Numbered from the stretch's first letter, positions 36,243-40,274 are shown. The stretch: 64,000 nt of DNA from Candidatus Bathyarchaeota archaeon (GCA_026014735.1 JAOZHT010000004.1:157321-221320); one strand, 5' to 3'. Notes: generated from the letters alone by a model not told the origin. Program-made: numbers and translations.

Positions 36243-36611
36243 ATGAGATTGATTGCTGTACTTGGCGGTGTTGCTGCTGCGGTTTTGTTCTTTTTTGCAG
36301 TTATCTTTGCGCTTGCCTCCTCCTATGTGGGGCTTACTGCTCAGGCGGCTCAGGCTCGGTTGCTTACGGCTGCGATCCTCTTCATCGTGGGCTTAGCTGT
36401 GGTGGTGGGCATTTACTTCTTGACGCGCAAGCCCAAAACTGTCATCCAGTGTGTGGAGATGTCGGGGGAGATGAAGGCGGCGCAGATTAAGTGTCCCCAC
36501 TGCGGAGCCAACATCGACGCAGACCAAATCCAGATACGAGACGGCGTGCCATATGTTAAGTGCCCCTACTGCGGGACAACTTTTGAGGTTGCTGAGGAGC
36601 CGAAATGGTAA
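36243..36611 (+). CDS. Small two-helix membrane protein with zinc ribbon
   Basis: 122 residues: two membrane helices (about 2-27 and 40-62) then a cytoplasmic zinc ribbon (CPHCGANI and CPYCGTTFEV, about 25 residues apart). It overlaps the next gene by 7 nt, so it is the first gene of the operon with the DUF2207-like protein and the radical SAM enzyme. Possibly a docking protein at the membrane; function unknown. Confidence 0.8.
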   Translation: MRLIAVLGGVAAAVLFFFAVIFALASSYVGLTAQAAQARLLTAAILFIVGLAVVVGIYFLTRKPKTVIQCVEMSGEMKAAQIKCPHCGANIDADQIQIRDGVPYVKCPYCGTTFEVAEEPKW

Positions 36612-38218
36612 ATCGTGCACAGTTGCTTTTGGCGTTTCTGCTTGCCTGCATTTTAGCAGCGTCCGCATTCAGCTTCAGCCAAGCCCAGAGCCCAAGCTAC
36701 ACCGTGAATCAGGAGTGGGCGCAGCTCTTCATCAACCAGGACGGTACCGTGGATTTAACTTACAACATGTCCTTGACCGTGACCTCCGGCACCCTGAGCG
36801 CATTTGATTTGGGGCAGCCCAACACGGATTTCACCATCGGAGAGGCCGTGGACCAGTATGGCAACCAACTGCACACTTACAAGTTCAATGATGAGGTGGC
36901 ATCGGTGGATTTCCACACGCCGCTGACCGCGGGGGAAAGCATCTGGTACATCATAACCACCAACGTTGCAGGCATGATGCAGACCGACAGCACCAACGAG
37001 GGCAACTTGGGCATGGAGTTTACGCCGCAGTGGGATAAGACCGTGCCCATCAGTGATGTGCGGGTGCAGATTGTTTTCCCCGAAGGCGTCACCGTCGACG
37101 ACGTTAAGACGTTGCCGGACAAATTTTGGAATAGCAGCCAAACCGTGGAGGGCAGAACCGCCCTTTACTGGGAACTTCCGGCTCTGGGCGCTAACCAGCA
37201 GTATCCCATCGGCGTTTCCTTCCCAGCCGCGGCGCTTCCCAACTACACCCCGCCTGCAGGGATAGGCGCGTTGGGGATCATTTTTGCGGTGGCTGCGGCT
37301 TTAGCAGCCCTCTTCATCATCATATTCATCGCTTACCGCCTAAGCAAGAAAAGCTACACTAAACCCAAAGTCGGCATAGAAACCCTGGGCGTCAAACGGG
37401 GCTTAACGGCGGTGGAAGCCTCCTATCTGCTTGACCTCAAACCCCAGCAGATCGTAACGGAAATCCTCTACAGCCTGCTCCAGAAACGGGCGGTTTGGGC
37501 AACAGAAACCAAGCCCTCCCTCAAACTAAAGGTGCTATCGCCCTACGAGAGCAAAACCGGCACCAAAGAAAAACCGCTGCGCTACTACGAAATCGATTTC
37601 CTCCAAGCCCTCAAACCCGACGGCAGCCTCGACGAAGAGAAGCTGGCGCACGCCGTCATGTTCCTCCGCGACACCGTCGAGCAGAAGCTGCAGGGCTACA
37701 GCCGCAAAGACACCGCCGATTACTACCAAAAAATAGTTGCGAAGGCATGGCTGCAGGTGGAGCAGGCGGGGACGCCGGAGCTCGCATCCAACGCCTATGA
37801 TCAGCAGCTGCTCTGGCTCATGATGGACCCCGACCGCAAAGGCCGCACCGAAACCATCTTCCGTGACCGCCCCTTCCAGCCGCAGCCCCTGTGGTTCTGG
37901 TGGTGGTACGGCTACACCATCTATCACCCCCACCCCATCTTCACCCCGAACGTTAACGCCCCCAGCCAGATGCCCACTCCCGCTCCAGTTCCAGGCGCAG
38001 ACTTCGCCAACAACATAGCCACCGCCGTGGAAGGCACAGCCAACAACGTGGTGGTTAACCTCGAGAAATTCGCCAACGCCATCGTGCCACCGCCGCCTAA
38101 ATCCAGCCATCAACCCGCCCGCAAAGGAGGGGACTGCGTCTGCGCCTGTGCGGCTTGCGCCTGTGCCTGCGCTTGTGTGTCATGTGCCTGCGCCTGTGCA
38201 GGGGGAGGAGGACGCTAA
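36605..38218 (+). CDS. DUF2207-like membrane protein with ten-cysteine C-terminal tail
   Basis: 537 residues. A signal peptide (LLLAFLLACILAASAFSFSQ), an extracytoplasmic beta-rich domain (about 30-215, DUF2207-like), a membrane helix at about 220-243 (ALGIIFAVAAALAALFIIIF) and a large cytoplasmic part. The cytoplasmic part ends, after a Pro-rich linker, in a tail with Cys at 511, 513, 515, 518, 520, 522, 524, 527, 529 and 531, mostly alternating with Ala, closing AGGGGR. The tail is in the compartment where the next gene product, a PqqD-radical SAM-SPASM enzyme, would act; the ORFs are 1 nt apart. I infer the tail is its substrate. The DUF2207 match is from overall layout, not a search. Confidence 0.85.
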   Translation: MVNRAQLLLAFLLACILAASAFSFSQAQSPSYTVNQEWAQLFINQDGTVDLTYNMSLTVTSGTLSAFDLGQPNTDFTIGEAVDQYGNQLHTYKFNDEVASVDFHTPLTAGESIWYIITTNVAGMMQTDSTNEGNLGMEFTPQWDKTVPISDVRVQIVFPEGVTVDDVKTLPDKFWNSSQTVEGRTALYWELPALGANQQYPIGVSFPAAALPNYTPPAGIGALGIIFAVAAALAALFIIIFIAYRLSKKSYTKPKVGIETLGVKRGLTAVEASYLLDLKPQQIVTEILYSLLQKRAVWATETKPSLKLKVLSPYESKTGTKEKPLRYYEIDFLQALKPDGSLDEEKLAHAVMFLRDTVEQKLQGYSRKDTADYYQKIVAKAWLQVEQAGTPELASNAYDQQLLWLMMDPDRKGRTETIFRDRPFQPQPLWFWWWYGYTIYHPHPIFTPNVNAPSQMPTPAPVPGADFANNIATAVEGTANNVVVNLEKFANAIVPPPPKSSHQPARKGGDCVCACAACACACACVSCACACAGGGGR

Positions 38219-38219
38219 G

Positions 38220-39545
38220 TTGAGTTTCATCAAACACTTTGGCAGAAAACAGCAGGTGCCCACGGGACGCTACAGCTACCGGGGCGAAGACAAATACGCT
38301 GGCATGTCGCTGCAGCTGCGGGTGGAAGCCGACGGCCGCGGCGTCATGGTGATTAACGCCAACACCGTTCTGCACCTGAATCAGTCCGCGACGTCATATG
38401 CCTACTACTTCATGATGGGGCATACCCAAGCTGAGGTAGTCAACAAAATCCGGGGCATATACCGGGTATCGGCGCAGGACGCCAAAACCGACTATGAACA
38501 GCTCGTCTACACCATCAGCACATTGGCGCAGACCGAGAAAATCGACCCCGTCACGTACCTCTCCATCGAAAAAGAGGAGCCCTTCACCTACCAGTACAGG
38601 GCGCCGCTGCGGATGGATATGGCGCTTACGTTTCGCTGCCAAAACGATTGCCTCCACTGCTACGCCGGCGGACCCCACCAAACAGCCGAGTTAACCACAG
38701 AGCAGTGGAAAACCGTAATTGACCGGCTTAGCGACGTCGGCGTCTTCATCTTAACCTTCACCGGCGGCGAACCCACCCTACGCGAGGACCTATCTGAGCT
38801 GCTGCTCTACGCCCAGAACAAGGGCATGGTCACGGGCCTAATCAGCAACGGGCGGCGCCTCAAAGACCCGCAGTACGTGGCAGAACTGGAGAAGGCGGGG
38901 CTGGATTTCGTGCAGATAACCCTGGAATCCCATAAGCCCAGCGTGCATGACGCCATAACCTGCTCAGAGGGCAGCTGGAAAGAAACGGTTGTAGGCATCA
39001 AAAACGCGGTGCACAGCCAGATCTACGTCTCCACCAACACCACGCTAAGCAAGCATAACGAAGCCGATTTTCTACGCACCATAGACTACATCAAGGAACT
39101 CGGCGTGGACGCGTTTGGCTGCAACAGCCTCATCTACAGCGGCAGAGCCCCCGCAGCCCAAAACGAATTCGCCCTCTCCCTCGAAGCGCTTAAGGCGCTG
39201 CTGCCCCAGATACGCGACAAAGCCCAACTGCTCGGCCTCAAGTTCCTCTGGTACACCCCCACCCAGTACTGCCAGCTTGACCCCGTCTCGATGGGGCTGG
39301 GCATAAAAACCTGCACTGCAGCGCTTATCAACGCCTGCGTGGGCCCCAGCGGCGAGGTGTATCCCTGCCAGAGCTACTTTGAAAGCCTCGGCAACATCCT
39401 CACTGAGCCCTGGATGAAAATCTGGCATAGCCCCCTGGCGGAGAAGCTGCGTAACCGAGGCTACGTGGAGGAGAAGTGCCGGGGCTGCGAGGAGCTGGGG
39501 GTCTGCGGCGGCGGTTGCCCCCTGGAGCTGCAGAATAAGCAGTAA
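38220..39545 (+). CDS. PqqD-radical SAM-SPASM peptide-modifying enzyme
   Basis: 441 residues, TTG start at 38220 with GGGGGAGGAGG eight bases upstream and only one base after the previous stop. Residues about 30-105 look like a PqqD/RiPP recognition domain (LNQSATSYAYYFMMGHTQAE). The radical SAM core has C140-x3-C144-x2-C147 (CQNDCLHCYAGG) and GGEPTLREDL. The C-terminal SPASM region has ten or so Cys (GIKTCTAALINACVGPSGEV, VYPCQSYFE, EEKCRGCEELGVCGGGCP) for extra clusters. Enzymes of this build install thioether or C-C links in ribosomal peptides. The upstream protein's Cys-rich tail is the obvious target. Confidence 0.9.
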   Translation: MSFIKHFGRKQQVPTGRYSYRGEDKYAGMSLQLRVEADGRGVMVINANTVLHLNQSATSYAYYFMMGHTQAEVVNKIRGIYRVSAQDAKTDYEQLVYTISTLAQTEKIDPVTYLSIEKEEPFTYQYRAPLRMDMALTFRCQNDCLHCYAGGPHQTAELTTEQWKTVIDRLSDVGVFILTFTGGEPTLREDLSELLLYAQNKGMVTGLISNGRRLKDPQYVAELEKAGLDFVQITLESHKPSVHDAITCSEGSWKETVVGIKNAVHSQIYVSTNTTLSKHNEADFLRTIDYIKELGVDAFGCNSLIYSGRAPAAQNEFALSLEALKALLPQIRDKAQLLGLKFLWYTPTQYCQLDPVSMGLGIKTCTAALINACVGPSGEVYPCQSYFESLGNILTEPWMKIWHSPLAEKLRNRGYVEEKCRGCEELGVCGGGCPLELQNKQ

Positions 39546-39583: not shown

Positions 39584-40108
39584 CTATTTTGCATTTGCCC
39601 ATGCCCGATAGTTAACACTGGGCTGACCCAAACTACCCCAGACGCTTAAATCAAAGGTAAACTGCATTGATTTGCTTTCGCCTTTTGCTAAATATACAGT
39701 GTTGCTCTGCTGCTCATATTTGCCAGCGCCGTTTATTTCGGCAAATACCTCAACGTTTCCTGCTCCACCATTATTTCGGACGGTAACGTCAACCTTGTAG
39801 GTGTAATCCAAGTTAGAAAATGACTCGCGCCCGTTGATAGAGGTAACTTGGGGATTAGGCGGATCAACGATTGCTGTGATTGGATTTGAGGAGCCAGGCG
39901 GGTTAAGAACCACTGCTGCAACAATAATCACAACAATTACAGCCACAGCCACACCTGCGATTATTTTCAGTGGGCTTCCACTTTTTCTTGGAGGCGGTGG
40001 GGGTGGCATTTGCTGATAAGGCATTTGGTTAAAGGGAACAGGCGTTCCACAACGTGGACAAAACTTTTCCTGATGCAACTCGGTTCCACAATTTCTACAG
40101 TATGGCAT
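39584..40108 (-). CDS. Zinc-ribbon membrane protein with extracellular beta domain
   Basis: 174 residues: an N-terminal zinc ribbon (YCRNCGTELHQEKFCPRCGT), a Pro-rich linker, one membrane helix (IIAGVAVAVIVVIIVAAVVL) and an outside domain of about 100 residues with a CARDB/FxLYD-like pattern (YTYKVDVTVRNNGGAGNVEV). Common architecture in archaea; ligand unknown. ATG at 40108. Convergent with the radical SAM gene (38 nt between stops). Confidence 0.8.
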   Translation of the reverse strand: MPYCRNCGTELHQEKFCPRCGTPVPFNQMPYQQMPPPPPPRKSGSPLKIIAGVAVAVIVVIIVAAVVLNPPGSSNPITAIVDPPNPQVTSINGRESFSNLDYTYKVDVTVRNNGGAGNVEVFAEINGAGKYEQQSNTVYLAKGESKSMQFTFDLSVWGSLGQPSVNYRAWANAK

Positions 40109-40274
40109 CAAAATCGACTATAATTAGCGATGAATCGTTTAAAAGGTTTTGCAATTGATTCCTTGCTTCCTAAAATGGACCCCCGTGCTTTTCTGCTAAC
40201 AGACAAACGATTTATCTTTACCAAACCCCCTTCTGTTAACGTAGAGACCCCTATCTTGGGGGTTCAGATGCATT

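Follow-up and report, generated by a model that had tools for sequence, protein, structure and literature searches.

A membrane protein with a cysteine-alanine tail and an adjoining radical SAM/SPASM enzyme: a candidate system for modifying a membrane-anchored protein tail

The 64,000-nucleotide stretch of a Candidatus Bathyarchaeota archaeon genome analyzed here (GCA_026014735.1, JAOZHT010000004.1:157321-221320; hereafter the window) contains an operon of three consecutive plus-strand genes. They encode a small zinc-ribbon membrane protein, a larger membrane protein ending in a cysteine-alanine (Cys-Ala) tail (the tail protein), and a radical S-adenosylmethionine (SAM)/SPASM enzyme carrying a PqqD-like RRE (recognition element for RiPPs, the ribosomally synthesized and post-translationally modified peptides). 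According to the original prediction for this locus, made from sequence alone, the substrate of the enzyme is the C-terminus of a large membrane protein, not a small free peptide; the co-occurrence of the two genes across genomes, together with tail types that track the enzyme tree, supports this claim.

The tail protein (36605-38218, plus strand; 537 aa) is a single-pass membrane protein, as seen from its open reading frame (ORF), an alignment of 34 homologs and an AlphaFold2 model (mean predicted local distance difference test score, pLDDT, of 81.8). The model and hydropathy place, in order, a signal peptide (residues 1-22), an outer beta-sandwich (residues ~30-210), a transmembrane (TM) helix (residues 222-246; 37268-37342, plus strand), an inner helical domain and a disordered tail. 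The predicted signal-peptide membrane protein with ten Cys at its C-terminus is therefore found at these coordinates, and its C-terminus is probably cytoplasmic: the TM helix is followed by RLSKKSYTKPK, a Lys/Arg cluster that by the positive-inside rule puts the tail on the same side of the membrane as the enzyme. Just before the tail, residues 464-493 (37994-38083, plus strand) are helical in the model (pLDDT 82-87) and carry the pattern PGxxFAxxI...VxNxxxF, conserved in the 34-homolog consensus; these helices are a candidate leader-like grip for the RRE. The protein has no Pfam or NCBIfam match above cut-off. A fold search with the outer domain returned ribophorin I and the N-terminal beta-domain of M1 aminopeptidase, a likeness that suggests a binding module without indicating a function.

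The proposed substrate is the tail itself, CVCACAACACACACVSCACACAGGGGR (residues 511-537; 38135-38215, plus strand), which has ten Cys in its 27 residues and is disordered in the model (pLDDT ~30). Across the family the tails contain six to ten Cys in CXC and CXXC spacing. Bacterial tails mostly have a Cys-Ala start and (CA)2-4, then GCACACAGGGR, while archaeal tails mostly read CVCACAxCACACACVSCACACAxGG; those of the Asgard archaea (Hodarchaeota and Heimdallarchaeota) are of the bacterial type. Tails of the Armatimonadota and Planctomycetota have one extra CA in the second strand, and in the Bacillota, Krumholzibacteriota and some others a short extension follows the tail. We took spacer statistics only from the samples found through the enzyme, because the DNA pattern used to scan GTDB genomes itself demands Ala at four sites: in these samples single-residue Cys spacers are Ala in 75/75 cases in the Chloroflexota and in 190/221 in the archaea, the remainder being Val (30) and His (1). 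By analogy with sactipeptides, and speculatively, the CA strands might fold into a hairpin that turns at the two-residue breaks (AG, VS) separating them.

This tail is under extreme purifying selection, in a protein whose other parts change fast. Among the 34 homologs, which come from both archaea and bacteria, columns of the tail core average 92% majority identity, against 30-50% for the body and 67% for the best 18-residue window of the body. In 19 archaeal tails paired codons differ synonymously at 59% and non-synonymously at 2.6%, indicating that the peptide, and not the DNA, is kept. Chance is excluded by these codon differences and by the recurrence of the tail, in the gene adjoining the enzyme, at 20/20 orthologous loci found among 61 relatives. 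The same synonymous scrambling rules out a DNA-repeat origin. A Shine-Dalgarno-like sequence for the enzyme, GGAGGAGG (38204-38211, plus strand), lies within the GGGG codons of the tail; as tails whose gene is not directly followed by that of the enzyme also keep GGG, it must be more than a ribosome site, and a purely Shine-Dalgarno origin of this part of the tail was likewise ruled out.

The enzyme (38220-39545, plus strand; 441 aa) starts with TTG at 38220, one base past the TAA stop codon of the tail protein gene (38216-38218), and homologous enzymes begin at the matching place with MSFLK. Its AlphaFold2 model (pLDDT 92.7, predicted template modeling score 0.90) comprises an RRE-like N-terminal domain, a TIM-barrel-type core and a SPASM domain. 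The RRE/PqqD-like domain (residues ~16-104; 38265-38531, plus strand) consists in the model of antiparallel strands followed by three helices and matches the TfuB1 RRE (6jx3) by profile (E 6.5e-5); one homolog (L164) exceeds the Pfam cut-off for PqqD. The core (PF04055, Radical_SAM, 3.6e-24) contains the CX3CX2C motif for the SAM-binding 4Fe-4S cluster (C140-C144-C147; 38637-38660, plus strand), invariant in 35 homologs, as are C365, C383, C420, C423, C429 and C433 of the SPASM domain. The latter (PF13186, 2.4e-10, above cut-off; 39312-39518, plus strand) has the arrangement C365-X12-G-X4-C383...CX2CX5CX3C (C420-C433). All three features that define RRE-dependent radical SAM/SPASM maturases (the RRE/PqqD fold, the CX3CX2C core and SPASM) are present, and coordinates, Pfam, profile search and model alike confirm the predicted enzyme, with its peptide-recognition domain, one base after the tail's stop. 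Among solved structures, a profile search places SkfB, PqqE and SuiB nearest, and a fold search SkfB, SuiB and CteB. Against the NCBIfam radical SAM equivalogs the best score was 141.5 bits (TIGR04055), far from the cut-off of 500, and the scanned homologs also fell below; the enzyme is thus in no named NCBIfam family.

Tail and enzyme are co-dependent, each rarely occurring without the other. Among the 61 relatives, enzyme orthologs are separated by a clear gap from the next radical SAM matches (E 1e-149 versus 1e-44), and both genes occur in the same 20 genomes; a contig end truncates a 21st tail gene. Across the phylum, 30 of 398 genomes encode the enzyme and 23 of 398 the exact tail motif, and all 23 fall within the 30. 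In all, 27 of the 30 have a tail next to the enzyme or close to it, as four of the seven enzyme genomes without the exact motif have variant tails adjoining the enzyme, for example CACACHSCACHCACVSCACACAGGGAH. In the Chloroflexota the enzyme is found in 15 of 251 genomes, each time with an adjoining tail (15/15). We also took 13 genomes in which the tail gene is unlinked or at a contig edge, picked for having no, a weak or a partial enzyme match near the tail; somewhere in the genome, 12 of the 13 do match the enzyme, one of these 12 (G072) only in fragments. The original prediction called for a search of archaeal genomes and named absence of the tail from most enzyme-bearing genomes as its refutation; the search found the contrary.

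The pair is not restricted to archaea. A DNA pattern scan of GTDB genomes gave at least 119 loci, mostly with C-terminal tails on one protein family; barring assembly breaks, all tail ORFs share one body family, and a profile of the whole tail protein finds this family almost only in enzyme genomes. The GTDB matches listed place the system in over 20 archaeal and bacterial phyla, among them Chloroflexota, Bathyarchaeota, Thermoproteota, Asgard lineages and Methanobacteriota (Thermococci, Methanocella) as well as Bacillota, Planctomycetota, Armatimonadota, Fermentibacterota, Acidobacteriota and Myxococcota. Mapped onto the enzyme tree, tail type changes five times, and all label groups together require 9 changes versus 48 in shuffles; judged from these sequences, tail type and enzyme share a common descent. 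Recurrent clusters of ORFs on the other strand or in another frame of GC-rich loci were taken as out-of-frame shadows of the enzyme and not as genes. In one genome (G074; L238, L314) the enzyme is split over two frames and the tail gene has an in-frame TAG, reflecting operon decay or an assembly error.

The strong chromosomal linkage could in principle mean that the two genes are neighbors only through operon inheritance and that the tail is a simple DNA repeat. This is already contradicted, and we regard it as extremely improbable: the peptide is fixed despite synonymous codon scrambling, and the enzyme is also present in genomes where the genes are unlinked.

We consider it likely that the cytoplasmic tail of the membrane protein is a dedicated substrate of the enzyme, which would modify it, probably through Cys-to-Ala thioether bonds, and that the resulting RiPP-like motif stays on its carrier. 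The RRE would grip the membrane protein, probably by the conserved helices that precede the tail, so that the disordered (CA)n strands could be fed into the active site. There, a 5'-deoxyadenosyl radical would abstract a hydrogen from an Ala (or neighboring) carbon, to which a Cys sulfur would bond, and the reaction would be repeated. The product would be a rigid, multiply thioether-bridged knot kept on its anchor, unlike a free RiPP; the extracellular beta-sandwich would serve for sensing or binding, and the zinc-ribbon protein would be a partner subunit. That the tail is the substrate is suggested by the architecture of the enzyme and by its nearest folds, which are peptide maturases, by a tail that is disordered and probably on the enzyme's side of the membrane, and by the use of Ala as a near-constant spacer, beyond what a plain metal ligand would need. 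The bond type, the Ala acceptors and any physiological role are more tentative suggestions. Thioethers are favored by the Cys-Ala composition of the tail and by published precedents: Ala is an acceptor in ruminococcin C1 (PMC8172795), SkfB makes S-to-C-alpha bonds (PMC6231123), and QhpD, which makes thioethers in the protein subunit QhpC, acts on proteins (PMC8172795).

Several observations weigh against this reading. The fold of the enzyme also supports C-C cross-links, epimerization and Cys oxidation, so that bond type cannot be read from sequence. The window enzyme, which ends in LELQNKQ (39502-39545), is without the last SPASM Cys that most relatives in the genus keep, and one of its auxiliary clusters may consequently have an open site. 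Three of the phylum's enzyme genomes (G299, G430 and G360), two of them ~80% complete, showed no tail adjoining the enzyme and none by a looser motif. Relatedness among the genomes means that the co-occurrence counts are not independent, and a tail that binds metal, or that holds the enzyme at the membrane, would also produce co-occurrence. With SuiB, PqqE, EpeE and anSME among the structural matches, the enzyme might modify the tail without thioethers, by C-C or ether cross-links, epimerization of Ala, or oxidation of Cys to formylglycine. This overlaps with our proposal, and we find it somewhat unlikely; nothing decisive stands against it, but a tail of Cys and Ala favors sulfur chemistry, and the best match in both sequence and fold is a sactisynthase.

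The zinc-ribbon gene bears on a further alternative. This first gene of the operon (36243-36611, plus strand; 122 aa) overlaps the start of the tail protein gene by 7 bases and encodes two hydrophobic helices and a C-terminal CPHC/CPYC zinc ribbon, with Zn_ribbon_3 and MJ0042_CXXC matches that exceed the curated cut-offs. A similar small gene lies directly upstream of 72 of the 100 tail genes with enough upstream sequence. At six loci where no upstream gene was found (L112, L149, L152, L159, L120 and L142), from Thermococci and Clostridia-type bacteria, the zinc ribbon is instead inside the tail protein, which argues for a working link between the two and agrees with the earlier suggestion that the zinc-ribbon protein is an added component. 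Outside the operon, a second zinc-ribbon membrane protein (MMPYCRNCGTELHQEKFCPRCG...; 39584-40111, minus strand) faces it from downstream.

Our main alternative is that the tail is an unmodified, metallothionein-like metal-binding or Fe-S strand on a membrane sensor, with a separate enzyme that uses, or is regulated by, the tail. The number of Cys (six to ten) and their CXC and CXXC spacing speak for this, as does a zinc ribbon upstream of or within the tail protein. Against it, metal binding would not call for Ala spacers so nearly constant or for a motif invariant across domains, the conserved neighbors included no conspicuous gene for metal transport or storage, and the presence of an RRE-containing relative of peptide maturases in nearly every genome would be left unexplained. 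We consider this alternative unlikely.

Our preferred reading, modification of a tail that stays on the membrane protein, also has to be compared with known systems. The best PDB match of the enzyme, by profile and by fold, is SkfB, and like the sactisynthases and ranthipeptide maturases (SkfB, AlbA, CteB/SCIFF, RumMC) the window enzyme combines an RRE, a radical SAM core and a SPASM/Twitch domain; a Cys-rich substrate, here a proposed one, is encoded alongside. The substrates of SkfB, AlbA, CteB and RumMC are short peptides, usually with a protease and an exporter, whereas the candidate here is the end of a 537-aa membrane protein. The short precursor and the dedicated protease or transporter that mark sactipeptides and ranthipeptides are missing, with no such conserved neighbors among the clustered ORFs, and for this reason we do not file the pair in any named RiPP class, although it would work in the manner of a RiPP maturase and its substrate. 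As RRE and radical SAM proteins usually serve released peptides, the tail might nevertheless be modified and then cut off as a free RiPP. We judge this very unlikely: in most members only GGGR or a similar short end follows the Cys strands, which thus lie at the very C-terminus, and neither a conserved protease nor an exporter stood out.

Other known systems resemble the pair in part. The targets of the ACGX system are Cys-containing repeats, and both this system and GeoRSP (NCBIfam TIGR04340 and TIGR04303) use a radical SAM/SPASM enzyme, but the window enzyme scores 71.5 and 114.9 bits against these models, for which the cut-offs are 400. DUF2207 proteins (PF09972) have a build similar to that of the tail protein, with a signal peptide, an outer domain, a TM helix, an inner domain and a low-complexity end. 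In the tail family, two of 34 members match DUF2207 at E up to 0.01, below the gathering cut-off (best 7e-4); the window protein is not one of them, and the Cys-Ala tail is not part of DUF2207. QhpC, a small enzyme subunit, is not known to carry a Cys-Ala tail of the membrane-protein kind. Its modifying enzyme, QhpD, is alike in being a radical SAM enzyme that makes thioethers within a protein and not in a free peptide (PMC8172795). The nearest published idea concerns the TIGR04222 membrane proteins, whose C-terminal, Cys-containing low-complexity segments have been proposed as substrates of neighboring MNIO (DUF692) enzymes (PMC12452194). These proteins have several TM segments and a Ser/Gly-rich tail predicted to be periplasmic, and 490 of 1372 genomes have no MNIO genes (PMC12452194); the present pair differs in enzyme class, in topology and in its tighter association, and the window tail protein has no NCBIfam match at E up to 1. 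No description of the pair or of the Cys-Ala tail was found in the literature, of which mostly open-access papers were covered, making this a weak absence. The pair seems to be an undescribed system for modifying the tail of a membrane-anchored protein.

The locus varies among lineages. A second protein of the enzyme family is encoded 3' of the enzyme at L052 (3155-4519) and 38 other loci, mostly in the Chloroflexota. This second homolog keeps the RRE-like domain but has lost the CX3CX2C and SPASM Cys (for example LDCALTYETSDRQSVVSAP; VLPRQGSN), and from its sequence it is probably a substrate-binding pseudo-enzyme partner. At two loci (L080:2062-3744 and L092:2783-4429, plus strand) a second, canonical copy of the enzyme carries GGGCSGCSGSCGTGG at its own C-terminus and adjoins a tail-family membrane protein without a tail; here the Cys segment may have been transferred to the enzyme. 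Nine IMG/VR contigs (L177, L179, L181, L182, L183, L189, L190, L176 and L186) have ORFs of ~86-167 aa with a C-terminal strand resembling CNCACACACFVCACACW or CACVDCACACDCGG. Viral contigs were rejected as carriers of the tail family: they yielded short chance ORFs or Cys-rich proteins whose bodies look unlike that family.

A broader proposal, which we find possible but hold with less than even confidence, is that these proteins form a widespread and so far undescribed class, RiPP-like but tethered to the membrane. Their (CA)n-turn-(CA)n tail would be a cytoplasmic thioether-bridged hairpin on a TM protein, serving as a stable structural, redox or metal module, to which the Chloroflexota would add a Cys-less pseudo-radical-SAM partner. 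The chemistry of RRE-containing radical SAM/SPASM enzymes is known mostly from small released peptides; here such an enzyme is tied to a membrane-protein tail that is not obviously released. The pair gives a nameable family to proteins outside the present Pfam and NCBIfam models, and its range, which includes cultured Anaerolineae (the pair is carried by the cultured hosts Ornatilinea apprima P3M-1, L072, and Leptolinea sp. HRD-7, L107), makes the proposal testable there. If it is true, RiPP-type modification would extend to resident membrane proteins.

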